Shown here: positions 14,723-54,293 of the stretch, piece by piece
Layout: every line of letters begins with the position of its first letter
Position numbering within the stretch: position 1 is the first letter of the stretch
NCBI RefSeq assembly: GCF_000250635.1
Contig: NC_016940.1
Coordinates: 3,534,501-3,598,500 of the forward strand
DNA length: 64,000 nt
Reading direction: 5' to 3'
Origin: Saprospira grandis str. Lewin
GTDB taxonomy: Bacteria; Bacteroidota; Bacteroidia; Chitinophagales; Saprospiraceae
Program-made: the position numbers and the translations under genes
Notes under the pieces: model-generated
What the model was told of the DNA's origin: nothing
Databases searched by the model: none
The model's input: only the letters and a program-made list of their open reading frames with translations

Positions 14723-15991
14723 ATGTCACAGTTTGAAGAATTTAGGCGCTTAGCTCAAGAGCTGGCAGAGGAAGAAGCGATTAGGCTCCTTAGTTTTGAA
14801 GTTTTTTCGCCCGCCAAGGCCGAGAAAATAGAAGAGTTGGAGGCCGAAAAGGGGATCCTTTTAGCCCCAGAGCTCAAGGCCTTTTATCTACAAACTAATG
14901 GCCTGCAGTTGCGTTGGGCTTTTAAAAATAATGCTTTGGCTGGGCCAGTAGGTCTACAAGATTGGGATTATCCGCTGCAGCAGTTTAGAGAGGAGGAAGG
15001 CTGTTTTTTTCTCTTGCCCATAGAGCGGCTTTTGGCTCCTAGTCCCTACCTCCAAGAGCTACTGCGCCCCCAAGAGCAAATTCAGTTTGCAGGCCAATCG
15101 CTTTCGCTAGCGCAGTTTTATCGCCAGATGTATCCTCTAGACGCCTTTTCTTCCTATTGTATACAGGCTATTTATTTTGGCCAAGCAGGGGCCCCGCTCT
15201 ATTTTGCCGATGAATATGGCCTGAACTTCGAGGCCTCTTTTCCCCTTTCGGTGGACCAGTATTTTCAGTTTGTTTTGCAAACAAAGGCCCTCAGCAGTGC
15301 CCGACAAGCTTATCTGCAGGCGCCCAGCCGGCCTCTTAGCCAATGGAGCAAAAAAGATTGGCGCAGTTTGGCCCAAAAACATCAGCTCAAACAATTGCTT
15401 TTTGAACAGGAGTTTCCCTTGGCGGGACAAGCCGCTAGCGATTGCTCAACCATCAAAAGTGCAGCTATGCGCCAAAGGGCCGAGCAGTCGCCAGCCATAG
15501 AAGAAGAAGAATGGCAGCGCATTTTGTTGGCCCATCAAGATTTTTTGCGGGCGGGTGGGGCCGGCGGCCAATGGAAGATGATGCAACTGATGGGGCAGGT
15601 TTTTGGCGCCTACCAATTGGGCAGAGAGCTAAGCAAGGGCCAACAAGCTATTTTAGATATGCGGCGACTTTCGGCAGAGTTGGACCTTGAAGAGTTGCAA
15701 ATGCCTTATGCCTCTTTTTGTGGCGCTTGGCTCAAATATCTCAATTTTAGCGAGGCCCAATTGCAGTTTTCACTCTTTACCGATGCCATGCTGGAAAAAG
15801 CCATCTTTGCTGAGGCCCAACTGGCCGGTAGCGATTTTTCTCGGGCTTGCCTCCGTGGCGCCAGCTTTGTCAATGCCAATTTACAAGGGGCCGATTTTGA
15901 ACTAGCCGACCTTAGAGGGGTGGACTTCCGTGGCGCTATCCTTACCGATGCTCGCTTTCCCGGTGCCCAACTAGAGGGCGTCCTCCGCTAA
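14723..15991 (+). CDS. SUKH-like domain fused to pentapeptide repeats
   Basis: This 422-residue protein has two recognisable ends. Residues 1-170 resemble the SMI1/KNR4 (SUKH) fold: a helix, then EKIEELEAEKGILLAPELKAFYL, a QTNG turn and an aromatic-rich PVGLQDWDYPL segment. Residues 330-420 are pentapeptide repeats with the A(D/N)LxG or A(D/N)FxG pattern (LRGASFVNANLQGADF), forming a right-handed quadrilateral helix. The middle (180-325) is helical and unrecognised. SUKH proteins often serve as immunity proteins or protein adaptors. It is preceded by a 254-base AT-rich gap with no clear gene. Confidence 0.72.
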   Translation: MSQFEEFRRLAQELAEEEAIRLLSFEVFSPAKAEKIEELEAEKGILLAPELKAFYLQTNGLQLRWAFKNNALAGPVGLQDWDYPLQQFREEEGCFFLLPIERLLAPSPYLQELLRPQEQIQFAGQSLSLAQFYRQMYPLDAFSSYCIQAIYFGQAGAPLYFADEYGLNFEASFPLSVDQYFQFVLQTKALSSARQAYLQAPSRPLSQWSKKDWRSLAQKHQLKQLLFEQEFPLAGQAASDCSTIKSAAMRQRAEQSPAIEEEEWQRILLAHQDFLRAGGAGGQWKMMQLMGQVFGAYQLGRELSKGQQAILDMRRLSAELDLEELQMPYASFCGAWLKYLNFSEAQLQFSLFTDAMLEKAIFAEAQLAGSDFSRACLRGASFVNANLQGADFELADLRGVDFRGAILTDARFPGAQLEGVLR

Positions 15992-16025
15992 TTGGATACT
16001 ATATATATATAGGATGAGTTTTTTT

Positions 16026-16310: not shown

Positions 16311-16730
16311 TTTATTTCCCATCATTTTCATAGGCACCCCTAGGGCTAAGGCCCTAGGCTATAGAATCTGTCATCCCCTCGAAGGAGGGGATTTTTTGTT
16401 TAGCCAGCCTCTAGTTTTATTGGCGAAGCAAGTAGATTAGGTAAAAAGCCCCCTCTGTTGCTACGGGTTGAAACCCGCAGCCAATTTCGGGACAGATTAG
16501 CTGACATTTAGCCGCCCTTTGGCCTGCAGCTTAAAAGCCGCAGGGCCTGAAAAACCGAATAGCTCCTTTCTTAACTAAAGCAGGGGCTTTTAAACCGCTG
16601 CGGCGAGAAAAATGATGGCCCAAGCAAATTGGCTGCGGCCTTTAGGCTGCAGAAATAGGGATTCTGGCCCCTAATTGTTAGGGAGTTGTTAAAAACGAAA
16701 ATAATGTAACAAAATCAAAAAGGGCAAAAG
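16311..16730. repeat. Gene-free stretch of short inverted repeats
   Basis: The stretch holds short palindromes only: CCTAGGGCTAAGGCCCTAGG near 16328, CCCCTCGAAGGAGGGG near 16375, the TGAA-loop hairpin CTACGGGTTGAAACCCGCAG at 16461-16480, and the AAAGCCGCAGG / AGCAGGGGCTTTT pair at 16526-16600, which recurs inverted near 38560-38635. I see no coding gene. Confidence 0.6.
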
Positions 16731-17143
16731 TTCGGTTTGGAGGTGAACTAGTTCGGTCTGGAGGTGAACTAGTTCGGTCTGGAGGTGAACTAGTTCGGTC
16801 TGGAGGTGAACTAGTTCGGTCTGGAGGTGAACTGGTTCGGTCTGGAGGTGAACTAGTTCGGTCTGGAGGTGAACTAGTTCGGTCTGGAGGTGAACTGGTT
16901 CGGTCTGGAGGTGAACTAGTTCGGTCTGGAGGTGAACTGGTTCGGTTTGGAGGTGAACTAGTTCGGTCTGGAGGTGAACTAGTTCGGTCTGGAGGTGAAC
17001 TGGTTCGGTTTGGAGGTGAACTAGTTCGGTCTGGAGGTGAACTAGTTCGGTCTGGAGGTGAACTGCTTCGGTCTGGAGGTGAACTAGTTCGGTCTGGAGG
17101 TGAACTGCTTCGGTCTGGAGGTGAACTGCTTCGGTCTGGAGGT
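16731..17143 (+). repeat. 21-bp tandem repeat array, 19.7 copies
   Basis: Nineteen full 21-base units and one partial one follow without a spacer. Each contains TTCGGTCTGGAGGTGAACT, then AG, GG or GC. Only two positions vary appreciably (T/C in GGTYTGG, and the AG/GG/GC pair), so the array is young or homogenised. Junctions with AG form the 10-bp palindrome GAACTAGTTC. One plus-strand frame (reading RSGGELV) is open from 16682 to 17163 but lacks any start codon. Confidence 0.95.
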
Positions 17144-39256: not shown

Positions 39257-39379
39257 TTACTGGCCGCTCGGCCCTTCGGCCACCCCTGCAGTTCAGTTAC
39301 TCCCTTTGGTCGTCGAAGACGCCCTAAAGGCTTTGTTGTGGTCGTTTGGCCTTCGGCCATGGCGGCTTTGCCGCCTGCC
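39257..39379 (+). repeat. Degenerate GC-rich hairpin element, copy 14
   Basis: Only pieces remain: CCGCTCGGCCCTTCGGCCAC, CTTTGGTCGTCGAAG (shared with copy 13) and GGCGGCTTTGCCGCC. Confidence 0.6.
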
Positions 39380-39385
39380 ATTCAT

Positions 39386-39550
39386 CGCCTAGGGACAAGC
39401 CCCTAGGCTAACCCCATGGAGTCAGCCCTAAAGGGCCTCAACTGCTTATATAGCTGGCCTTGCTCATCTGTTTTGCAGAGAAGGGCTATATCCAAAGGCC
39501 CTCGCAGAGGGCTGTCTGAAAAAGCTAGCCTAGGGGCTTGTCCCTAGGCG
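39386..39550 (+). mobile_element. MITE-like inverted-repeat element, copy 1
   Basis: A 165-bp element has 25-bp terminal inverted repeats starting CGCCTAGGGACAAGCCCC. It encodes nothing. Inside, further complementary segments (AGCCCT...AGGGC) occur. A related copy lies inverted at 52647-52815. The gene relic at 39534 reads out of its right end. Confidence 0.75.
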
Positions 39551-39733
39551 CAGGAATGCGAAGGCTGAGATTTTAAAATTCATAAAAGGTACAATTACAG
39601 ATAAAGAACAGTATGATTTTTTTCTTAAAAATCTAGAGGTAAAATGCCCTTACCCCCAAAATTAGGACAGTAGTTTAAGGTGGAAAAACGCAAGAAAAAA
39701 AGTCGTATAATGAAGCACTAAATTACAAAAGAG

Positions 39734-51624: not shown

Positions 51625-52608
51625 ATGGAATATCGCAGATTAGGAAAATCGGGTTTGCAAGTCAGTGCACTTTCTTTGGGCTCATGGCTTACTTTTGGAA
51701 ATCAAATTGGGGATGATGTCGCCGAAGAATTGATGAAAATGGCCTATGAACAGGGCGTCAACTTTTTTGATAATGCCGAAATTTACGCCAATGGGCAATC
51801 GGAGATCGTGATGGGCAATATTTTGAAGAAAATGGGCTGGCGTCGCTCTTCTTATTTGGTCTCTAGCAAAGCCTTTTTTGGCGATGGCAACAAATTGCCC
51901 AATGAAAGAGGCCTAAGCCGCAAGCATTTGGTAGAAGCCTGTGAGGCCGCCTTGAAGCGCTTGCAGGTCGATTATTTGGACCTCTTTTACTGTCATCGTC
52001 CAGATAAAGAAACGCCCATTGAAGAGACCGTTTTGGCCATGAATACCCTCATCCAACAGGGCAAAATTTTATATTGGGGAACCTCAGAATGGTCGGCCCA
52101 AGAAATCATGGAAGCCCATATGGTGGCCAAAGATTATCGCCTGATTGGGCCTACAATGGAGCAGCCACAATACAATATGTTTCATAGAGAAAAAGTGGAG
52201 GTAGAATATGCCCAAATTTACAAAACAGTGGGGCTGGGCACCACCATTTGGTCGCCTTTGGCCTCTGGGGTTTTGACCGATAAATACCTCAAGGAGTTTC
52301 CAGATAATACCCGCCTGAGCTTGCAGGGCATGGACTGGCTTAAGGAGCGCTCATTAACACCCGAACGCTTGGATAAGGTGCGTGAACTCCAAAAACTAGC
52401 CGATCAATTAGGGACCTCTGTGGCCAAATTGGCCGTGGCTTGGTGCGCCAAGAACCCCAATGTGAGTACCGTTATTTTAGGGGCTTCTAAGCCACATCAT
52501 TTAGCCGAAACCTTGACCGCCTTGGAGCTTTTGCCTCAATTTACCGAAGACCTAAACAGCCAAATTGAAGCGATCTTAGGCAATCAACCTGAGTTTCCTA
52601 TGTTCTAA
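51625..52608 (+). CDS. Aldo/keto reductase, Kv-beta/YghZ-like
   Basis: This 327-residue NADPH-dependent reductase starts MEYRRLGKSGLQVSALSLGS, typical of the group. The catalytic tetrad is visible: Asp and Tyr in FFDNAEIYANG near residue 52, Lys in VSSKAFF near 84 and His in FYCHRPD near 118. The C-terminal GASKPHHLAETLTAL segment binds the cofactor phosphate. The family reduces aldehydes or ketones such as methylglyoxal. It is a single gene facing a repeat-rich gap. Confidence 0.9.
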   Translation: MEYRRLGKSGLQVSALSLGSWLTFGNQIGDDVAEELMKMAYEQGVNFFDNAEIYANGQSEIVMGNILKKMGWRRSSYLVSSKAFFGDGNKLPNERGLSRKHLVEACEAALKRLQVDYLDLFYCHRPDKETPIEETVLAMNTLIQQGKILYWGTSEWSAQEIMEAHMVAKDYRLIGPTMEQPQYNMFHREKVEVEYAQIYKTVGLGTTIWSPLASGVLTDKYLKEFPDNTRLSLQGMDWLKERSLTPERLDKVRELQKLADQLGTSVAKLAVAWCAKNPNVSTVILGASKPHHLAETLTALELLPQFTEDLNSQIEAILGNQPEFPMF

Positions 52609-52611
52609 AAC

Positions 52612-52895
52612 GAGTCTGTTTAAAATTTTGTGTATGCCCTTTCCTGCGCCTAGGGACAAGCCCCTAGGCTAGCTTTTCAGACAGCCCTCTAAAGAGGGCC
52701 TTTGGATAAGGTTCTTCTCTGCGACAACAACTGAACAAGGCCTTGTGTATCAACAGTTGAGGCCCTCGTAGAGGGCTGCCTCCATTGGATTAGCCTAGGG
52801 GCTTGTCCCTAGGCGATGAATGACTGAATCTTGCTTTTGAGCACTAAGCTAAAGGGCCAAATTTTATTCGGATACACAAAATCCTGAACAGTCTC
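52612..52895. mobile_element. MITE-like element with outer and inner inverted repeats, copy 2
   Basis: The inner part 52647-52815 is the inverted relative of 39386-39550 with 25-bp ends starting CGCCTAGGGACAAGCCCC. Around it, GAGTCTGTTTAAAATTTTGT at 52612 and the complement of GAGACTGTTCAGGATTTTGT ending at 52895 form a second, outer inverted repeat. It encodes no protein. The outer ends resemble those of some IS256-type elements, which is a suggestion only. Confidence 0.7.
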
Positions 52896-52896
52896 C

Positions 52897-53001
52897 CTAA
52901 TGAATTGGGTTGTGAAGCTAATGAATTAGTACTGGGACCTAATGAATTGGGTTGCGGAGCTAATGAATTAGTACTGGGACCTAATGAATTGGGTTAGGGC
53001 C
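52897..53001 (+). repeat. Second 21-bp tandem array, five alternating units
   Basis: Five 21-base units each start CTAATGAATT. Units 1, 3 and 5 continue GGGTT, and units 2 and 4 continue AGTACTGGGAC, giving an A-B-A-B-A pattern. It begins one base after the MITE-like element. The sequence is unrelated to the array at 16731, although the period is the same. Confidence 0.9.
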
Positions 53002-53067
53002 CTAAATCAAGGCATTTTTGTTTTTGTTTCGTTTGGGAGCTATTTTTATTGTTCTGAACAATAAAAA

Positions 53068-53100
53068 AAGAGGAAGCTAGCAATTTGCTAGCTTCCTCTT
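53068..53100 (-). terminator. Rho-independent terminator of the PepSY gene
   Basis: AAGAGGAAGCTAGCA pairs over 15 bp with TGCTAGCTTCCTCTT; on the minus strand a T run follows. Confidence 0.9.
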
Positions 53101-53105
53101 TCCAA

Positions 53106-54293
53106 TTACTTCACTTTCTTCCACCAGAAAATAAAGCCCGTAATGGGTAAAGAACAGCCGATTAGGGCCATAATAAAATAGAGAATAATGCTTTTGATGC
53201 CCAGAATTTCTCCAGTATGCAAAGGCTTGGCAATTTCGATAAACTGCTTGTGCAAAGCCTGATCGGCAAATAGCGCCTGATTTTTCAGTTCTCCTTTTTT
53301 ATTGAAGGCCAGTTCATCGGGTAAAATCGCACCTAAAAAATTGCTCGTATTGAGCTTGGTCACCTTAAATTCACTTTCCTTATCGTTAGGCCCCAGAATA
53401 GAGATCGCCCCAGCATAAGGCAGTTGTTTATTGGTCAACTGATAAATCGAATCAAAGGAAACCGCCGATAGCTCCGCCATTTGCTTTTTATCTTGCTCTT
53501 TGGCCAGCATTTGCTTCAAAACGGCATCAAAATCTTCCGACAATTCCTCTTTGGCAGCTTCACTGGCCACCGCATGTCCGCCCAAACTCACAATAAAGAC
53601 GTTTTTCATCCAAGGGTAAGTGATATAGGCCCCCGTCAAAGCGATAAAAAGCAAGAATAAGGAGCTATAAAAGCCAAGCACCTTGTGCAAATCATAATTG
53701 ATGCGGTAAAACTTCGCCTTGAACTTGATGTAAAAGCCACGCTTTAAATTGCGCATGTTTTTCGGAAACCAAAGGACCAAACCAGAAAGCAAAAGCAGAC
53801 AAAATATCAAACTGCTAATGCCCACAATTTGCTTTCCGATGCCCGGAATCCATAAACTTTTGTGCAAACTCAAAATCAACTCAAAAAAATCATCCAATTG
53901 AATGGACCGATACCCCAAAAGTTGTTGCCGATAAGGGTCAAAATACTGAGTTTTGCTTTGTTCTTCGCCTTGCTCCCGAAAACTAATGCTATAACTCCTA
54001 TTGGGCTGTTCGGGAATCACTATGGCCGTGATTTCTCGCCCCTGCCGCTCAAATAAAGCCTCTATAGCCGCTATATTTACCTGCGGATGGGCGGGCAGCT
54101 CTACAAAAACTTTCTCCGCATTGTAATAGTCATTGATCTGCGTCTTAAAGGCATAAATACTGCCCGATAAACAGATAATAAAAACAACCAAAGAGGAGAG
54201 GAGCCCCAACCAAAGGTGCAAAATTCCAGAAATGTATTTAAACCAAGATTCCTTCTTCCGCTTTTTGGGAAATAAGGCTTTTTTGAGTTTCAT
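53106..54293 (-). CDS. PepSY-associated transmembrane protein
   Basis: This 395-residue protein has four membrane helices in the PepSY_TM pattern: about 28-50 (LHLWLGLLSSLVVFIICLSG), 155-178 (QIVGISSLIFCLLLLSG), 205-225 (FYSSLFLLFIALTGAY) and 365-388 (IILYFIMALIGCSLPITG). The LHLWLGL and SLHKSLW segments place His residues where this family is thought to bind haem or act in flavin- or iron-reduction. Such proteins are usually iron-regulated and linked to siderophore uptake. The lipoprotein gene upstream on the same strand is 34 bases away and may belong to the unit. Confidence 0.85.
   Translation of the reverse strand: MKLKKALFPKKRKKESWFKYISGILHLWLGLLSSLVVFIICLSGSIYAFKTQINDYYNAEKVFVELPAHPQVNIAAIEALFERQGREITAIVIPEQPNRSYSISFREQGEEQSKTQYFDPYRQQLLGYRSIQLDDFFELILSLHKSLWIPGIGKQIVGISSLIFCLLLLSGLVLWFPKNMRNLKRGFYIKFKAKFYRINYDLHKVLGFYSSLFLLFIALTGAYITYPWMKNVFIVSLGGHAVASEAAKEELSEDFDAVLKQMLAKEQDKKQMAELSAVSFDSIYQLTNKQLPYAGAISILGPNDKESEFKVTKLNTSNFLGAILPDELAFNKKGELKNQALFADQALHKQFIEIAKPLHTGEILGIKSIILYFIMALIGCSLPITGFIFWWKKVK

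Follow-up and report, generated by a model that had tools for sequence, protein, structure and literature searches.

The tandem array at positions 52897-53001 of the window (the whole stretch of 64,000 nucleotides of Saprospira grandis str. Lewin that was analysed) is ordinary within a genome-wide class of arrays, and this class is tied, unexpectedly and with a strong orientation, to one transposon family. In the source genome (G000; 4,400,185 bases in two contigs, the larger of 4,345,237) we observed an excess of tandem arrays with periods at or near multiples of 21 bp (21n), an association of these arrays with the right ends of an IS256-family insertion sequence (IS) and its MITEs, an asymmetry between the right and left ends of these elements, and 8-bp target duplications. 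We lean towards the explanation that the arrays are older, dispersed modules which would act as preferred and oriented landing sites for the IS and its MITEs.

The focal array is noncoding and intergenic; the two genes that flank it are convergent and encode an aldo/keto reductase and a PepSY_TM protein. The features of the locus, and a second copy of the MITE in the window, are the following:

51625-52608, plus strand: aldo/keto reductase gene, the left neighbour (ORF, PF00248)
52612-52895, plus strand: MITE of 284 bp, derived from the IS256 family, with terminal inverted repeat I2; its right end faces the array
52897-53001, plus strand: 21-bp tandem array of five units, with a 42-bp double unit (TRF, repeat-pair search)
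53002-53064, plus strand: tail 3' of the array, the final part of a stretch absent from the congener G002
53067-53101, no strand: 17-bp perfect inverted repeat I3, a probable terminator between the convergent genes (inverted-repeat search)
53106-54293, minus strand: PepSY_TM protein gene, the right neighbour (ORF, PF03929)
39379-39556, minus strand: incomplete copy of the same MITE, its right end not intact (MITE match in the window)

The 105 bp of the array are exactly five 21-bp units in the order A-B-A-B-A (CTAATGAATTGGGTTGTGAAG / CTAATGAATTAGTACTGGGAC / CTAATGAATTGGGTTGCGGAG / CTAATGAATTAGTACTGGGAC / CTAATGAATTGGGTTAGGGCC), and both a direct reading of the units and TRF bear out the original prediction on this point. 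The array had also been described as starting one base past the end of the MITE, which is correct, 52895 being the last base of the MITE and 52897 the first of the array. By TRF the best period is 42 (2.4 copies, 96% matches, score 186), compared with a score of 102 for a period of 21. The motif CTAATGAATT has exact matches in the window at the five places of the focal array only, and 16 matches when up to one mismatch is allowed, with 8.1 expected. A pair of these motifs spaced by 21 bp was found four times in the whole genome, each time inside the focal array, and the reversed control gave no match. No open reading frame of at least 60 amino acids was found over the array, a scan against Rfam gave 11 matches, every one under its gathering score, and the 63-bp tail has no second copy in this genome among the matches listed. 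With at least four repeats in noncoding DNA, the focal array falls within the class of tandem repeats with a constant size of 20-21 nt. When the arrays were clustered into sequence families it remained a singleton, and its units resemble those of the other families no better than shuffled sequences do, aside from weak values of 0.036 (unit B and a G001 family) and 0.022 (the A+B double unit and family v) among many comparisons. A CRISPR array was ruled out, the units abutting without spacers. Plasmid iterons are opposed by the 4.35-Mb contig and by the four scanned neighbours (reductase, PepSY_TM, LTXXQ and DUF4254), and a search for plasmid relatives of the focal sequence gave no match. Palindromic cores were seen by eye in the units of the arrays.

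The focal MITE derives from an IS256-family insertion sequence. Its left end is GAGTCTGTTTAAAATTTTGTGTAT and its right end ATACACAAAATCCTGAACAGTCTC, and as a query it matches 118 pieces in this genome. The short copies of MITE type, from 129 to about 287 bp, have the same ends as the 1359-bp copies, and full-length partner copies of about 1360 bp encode a 398-aa transposase of the IS256/Mutator type (PF00872, E 1.1e-108; NF033543 IS256). Members of the IS256 family carry terminal inverted repeats and generate target duplications of 8-9 bp. The autonomous partner possesses the Mutator-type transposase, the inverted repeats and the 8-bp duplications. There are ten autonomous copies, of which one is interrupted by a MITE, another has an internal stop and a third is short at its start, and eight copies are 99.26-99.93% identical to a ninth, taken as the reference. 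Four congeners, including one that is only 63% complete, gave no match to the transposase at E 1e-60. Two MITE copies, at G000 C1 3486507 (inside the transposase gene of an IS) and 1880214 (inside another MITE), each have an 8-bp duplication. The tip of the right end is itself tandemly duplicated at a few sites, with periods of 19-20 bp at G000 C1 327665, 2609920, 2807932 and 3834086 and of 11 bp at 546157.

From two 21-bp arrays in the window, the original prediction had suggested a common cause, which a genomic peak at 21 that coding would not explain would support. We therefore determined the period distribution in a systematic sample of 40 stretches of 20 kb (800 kb) of this genome, keeping arrays with a TRF score of at least 150. 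The 21n peak was found: 20 of the 27 strong arrays, from several unrelated sequence families, have periods of 21, 22, 41, 42, 63 or 65, and 13 of the 27 have a period of exactly 21 or 42. In the wide 21n class (periods within k of 21k, with k up to 6), which covers about a quarter of all periods up to 200, the count is 22 of 27 rather than 20 because periods of 83 and 103 are also admitted. The 103-bp repeat (15732-16017 of its sample stretch, G000 C1 1868732) appears by eye to be a repeated tRNA gene. Coding is not the cause of the 21n periods, since three does not divide the period of 6 of the 20, and no open frame is present in 13 of 57 wide-class arrays, the rest having one to four.

The same spacing appears inside the arrays and across their families. 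Among lags of 10 to 33, the best was 21 in 38 and 22 in 6 of 65 arrays, in examined sequence that was enriched for the flanks of elements. Clustering gave 24 sequence families, including 16 arrays from a 400-kb piece of G002, and 11 of the 24 have a period or best lag of 21, 22 or 41-44, a count that leaves out a family made of the element's own tandem copies. Among the families with a member in this genome the proportion is 10 of 17, so that several families of one length and different sequence are found together in a single genome, as in the constant-size class. In the 400-kb piece of G002 (3300001-3700000), 8 of 16 strong arrays have a period of 41 and one of 42, compared with 4 and 10 of 27 in the sample of this genome. 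In two more distant relatives, each represented by 200 kb from the starts of large contigs rather than by an even sample, no period of exactly 21 or 42 was found; two of four arrays in one of them belong to the wide class, and the other had no arrays.

The second 21-bp array of the window is preceded by a conserved AT-rich sequence:

16662-16728, plus strand: AT-rich leader of family (i) (sequence matches)
16729-17143, plus strand: second 21-bp array, of family (i), unit AGTTCGGTCTGGAGGTGAACT, 19.8 copies (TRF)

This array, placed near 16731 by the original prediction, is real, and the claim that it shares no sequence with the focal array also held, the best circular matches of 11 and 10 of 21 being reached by 30% and 57% of shuffles. 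It is, however, no lone second case to be paired with the focal array, as its family numbers 13 arrays in the examined sequence (membership by period and coordinates). A leader stands at one end of all 13, judged by coordinates, and a right end is often found at the other. The core of the leader occurs at 19 places in this genome and at 15 and 13 in two congeners; the conserved leader might hold a promoter or a binding site. No element end was found beside the 16729-17143 array in this genome. At the orthologous place in G002 there are the leader and about 1.5 units, with the right end of a MITE turned towards them, and no target duplication of that MITE was seen by eye. At another family (i) array, a MITE with the duplication GGGATTTT sits within the leader. 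The intergenic spaces at 16460-16660 and after 17150 of the window look like mosaics of dispersed palindromic repeats that recur elsewhere.

The link between arrays and elements was examined with the right-end 20-mer, which, with up to two mismatches, has 57 matches in the genome (reversed pattern, none), or 50 sites after merging neighbours. An outward 21n array (TRF score 100, 60 bp) lies within 30, 100 and 300 bp of the right end at 26, 35 and 38 of the 50 sites, and outward arrays of other periods were found at none. On the inward side of the same sites the numbers are 0, 0 and 1, and for random positions of the sample they are 31, 44 and 61 of 4000. With 38 of 50 right ends facing a 21n array, the transposon is therefore part of the array story. 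The common cause proposed for the 21-bp arrays gains from the 21n peak, but the original prediction had missed that the position of an array beside a MITE is a rule. The figure of 38 of 50 overstates independence because certain right ends have been duplicated together with their arrays, as at 3529206 and 3729205, where the common sequence continues past the leader.

Left ends behave differently. Pairing with a left end succeeded for 48 right-end sites, some of which have their left end in common, and right ends face a 21n array in 38 of these copies (to 200 bp) compared with 0 of 48 left ends having an array outward (to 300 bp). Both flanks are taken from the same places, and a shared preference for intergenic space therefore cannot explain the difference between right and left. 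Arrays occur in both orientations with respect to the right end, three are flanked on either side by right ends that point at them, and a single exception, the right end at 1383047, has its array on the wrong side. Conversely, a facing right end (up to three mismatches) was found at 9 of the 22 wide-class arrays of the sample and none at 13, although decayed ends could have escaped, for example near 255232. Arrays therefore exist without a facing right end.

Target duplications, called when at least 7 of 8 bp matched, were found at 16 of the 48 copies (IS and MITEs), all 16 of different sequence, compared with 20 of 2256 mispaired controls. With an array score limit of 90 and a distance of 330 bp on the right, 11 of these 16 copies face a 21n array. 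The array starts past the duplication in nine of them, at up to about 115 bp, and within the duplication in two (1750152 and 3094614). The five copies with a duplication and no array are at 771642, 1437130, 2626915, 3486507 and 3950206, and that at 3486507 sits inside a further IS copy, which does have an array in front of its own right end. The copies with duplications are the safest subset as regards independence. Array remnants on the left side, seen in two cases, were explained by the target site itself.

Among the copies without a duplication at the expected place, arrays are present at 30 of 32 versus 11 of 16 with one, and the right end touches the array in 10 of 32 versus 2 of 16; these 32 include several sites in one element, and two have a duplication displaced by 9 and 13 bp. 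We read the excess of arrays at these copies as a probable later loss of sequence between right end and array, and it would also fit arrays that arose at the right end, or arrived with it, after insertion. The focal MITE belongs here: the best match to its left flank TCTAAAAC on the right is 4 of 8, and no duplication was found within 1400 bp. Over all copies, a second occurrence of the 8-mer from the left flank lies 60-1400 bp past the right end in 6 of 48 versus 121 of 2256 mispaired controls. Some of these recurrences are arrays that contain the target sequence, and a target duplication past the array is not convincingly indicated.

The orientation of right ends towards arrays is also present in the congeners. 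Of 31 right-end matches in G001, 17 were examined, and a 21n array lies no farther than 100 bp from 14 of them, and no farther than 30 bp from 13, compared with none of 13 left ends. All 13 right ends of G002 were analysed, and at the TRF threshold 2 of 13 face an array and 0 of 10 left ends do; the four in the 400-kb piece, all among the 13, gave 0 of 4. Sequence of the array families was nevertheless found within 80 bp past the right end, at a level above the 99th percentile of 1500 random segments, in 7 of the 13 (left ends, 0 of 10). Apart from the two with arrays, these G002 right ends adjoin only one or two units (five or six cases), and the period itself is therefore not needed there today. 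The tie of right ends to module sequence is thus found in three genomes, and long adjoining arrays are common in only two. At greater distance, relatives of the IS256 transposase at about 40% identity have arrays at 1 of 23 downstream and 1 of 22 upstream flanks, with no array excess over 27 loci. A 54%-identity relative in a Dysgonamonadaceae assembly (L175 2725-2860) carries an array of period 41 bp no more than about 50 bp from its putative right end, placed by eye, and 42- and 43-bp arrays on its left too. A 40%-identity relative in another member of the Bacteroidota (L187, about 2740-2990) has a degenerate 21-bp array shortly 3' of the transposase gene.

Orthologous places bear on which came first. 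At the focal site G002 lacks the MITE, the array and the tail together, a stretch of 451 bp (about 52614-53064) with flanks 93% and 97% identical, and the inverted repeat of 53067-53101 directly follows its reductase gene. An outgroup for this locus was sought and none was found among the other genomes, as the PepSY and LTXXQ genes are missing from that place in G001, the reductase gene of G004 is followed by different sequence and G003 gave no match. The 42-bp array at G000 3487369-3488081 is common to G002, with the same gene on its right, whereas its left neighbour in G000, an IS, was not found in G002; sequence left of this array does not align between the two genomes, and a replaced flank could explain the missing IS. 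At two loci, in a comparison of two genomes without an outgroup, there is support for arrays at places where the element is absent. In eight arrays near IS copies, the units average 81-97% identity. The arrays look older than the insertions because the IS copies differ so much less, at 99.26-99.93%.

Taken together, the sequence comparisons favour an order of events in which old modules would have been the targets. The focal array would then be one member of an intergenic set spread over the genome, made up of several unrelated families with a base period of 21 bp and unit sizes of 21, 22, 41-44, 63-65 and 126-129 bp. An element would land at the edge of an array or, judging from the copies with duplications, up to about 115 bp outside it, on either side and with its right end facing the array, and the insertion may be steered either by the transposase or by a host factor that binds the module. 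Target duplications would later be deleted by local changes, which would also leave the right end touching the array. The focal locus is read in this way by analogy with the others: its copy is consistent with the model, and the array there may have preceded the MITE. A more specific and rather unlikely version is that the transposase, alone or with a host factor, reads a 21-bp-phased architecture (helical phasing or a protein coat) rather than one sequence, the right end being delivered towards the array. We give such reading of periodicity a lower probability because right ends in G002 also adjoin one or two units, where a unit alone might be enough or the arrays might have shrunk later.

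Several other explanations were weighed. Chance slippage, with two arrays of the same period by coincidence, gains what weight it has from the fact that two arrays alone are weak evidence, and it is hardly credible beside the 20 of 27 strong sample arrays at the listed periods and the 38 of 50 right ends that face a 21n array. The original prediction had offered two-turn spacing for a DNA-binding protein as a cause; a nucleoid or regulatory protein that needs such phasing, and so keeps the period constant, is a possibility that we hold tentatively. The constant 21n period across several families speaks for it, and the same suggestion has been published for other bacteria (PMC8161180). If nothing more than a shared preference for intergenic space then brought arrays and elements together, arrays should be found on both sides of the elements, and the paired left ends have none. 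Such a protein is compatible with the landing-site model, as it could also guide insertion.

The transposon might instead have made the arrays or carried them. Growth at the right end, where nicking or abortive transposition would give local tandem duplications that seed or expand arrays, is unlikely in our estimation. The tandemly duplicated right-end tips (19-20 bp at several sites, 11 bp at one) show the kind of product that it calls for, and it would suit the higher share of arrays at copies without the expected duplication, the singleton status of the focal array, and the five or six G002 right ends that face only one or two units in a genome with no transposase match at E 1e-60. It does not account for the 13 of 22 sample arrays without a facing right end, even if decayed ends could be missed, nor for the recurrence of the same array families at many loci, the array common to an orthologous place where the IS was not found, the diverged units faced by near-identical IS copies, or the nine arrays that lie past an intact target duplication. 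A composite element, in which MITE, array and tail move as one unit like BrickBuilt of Porphyromonas gingivalis, is still less probable. The absence of the whole 451-bp focal stretch from G002 between well-conserved flanks is what such movement would leave, and family (i) arrays do have a leader at one end and often a right end at the other. Yet in 16 of 48 copies the duplications close the IS or MITE without the array, recurrences of the left-flank 8-mer farther out (6 of 48 versus 121 of 2256) come in part from arrays that contain the target sequence, and no far inverted repeat was seen by eye past the leader in 8 modules. With this evidence in view, the reading of the arrays as older landing sites is the one that we retain.

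Parts of this picture have precedents. Tn7-like and CRISPR-associated transposons insert at a distance from a recognised target and with a fixed orientation of their ends; here the distance ranges from 0 to about 115 bp, and the transposase is of the IS256 type. Porphyromonas gingivalis is also a member of the Bacteroidota. Its BrickBuilt element is a 23-nt minisatellite inside a MITE (PMC4596501), and it resembles our arrays in being an intergenic, dispersed minisatellite with a leader and a tie to a MITE. As described there, the BrickBuilt array sits between a leader and a tail that carry inverted repeats, whereas here the target duplications leave the array outside in 16 of 48 copies, and the arrays come from several unrelated families. 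IS elements, the IS256-family ISRm5 among them, are known to target REP sequences; for ISRm5 a type 2 association is reported in 5 of 7 copies (PMC1525189). The likeness lies in copies concentrated beside dispersed intergenic repeats, in one case for the IS256 family. No rule for the ends was met in the accessible descriptions of REP-targeting IS, and the neighbours here are 21n arrays of several sequences, faced by the right end.

The closest parallel for the arrays themselves is the work of Subirana and Messeguer (PMC8161180), who described, in Bacillus and other bacteria, tandem repeats whose size is constant (20-21 or 52 nt) while their sequence varies. As far as the accessible text of that paper goes, those repeats are likewise of 20-21 nt, mostly noncoding and present as several families of one length per genome, and the remark on two turns of the helix is made there. 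They differ in that a link to a transposon is not reported in that text; in our genome the double unit of 42 bp is the most frequent form, and the arrays are faced by right ends of the IS. Repeats of constant period, minisatellites within MITEs and IS elements that target REPs are thus already known. Among the matches listed from open-licence papers there was no literature report of oriented IS256 insertion at phased arrays.

Bacterial tandem repeats of constant length and variable sequence are without an established role, and a transposon that is oriented towards them gives a handle on them. Either a transposition complex can recognise some feature of the modules, or the modules owe their origin or growth to the transposon. 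If true, the landing-site model would add to the ways in which an insertion sequence can reach harmless sites.
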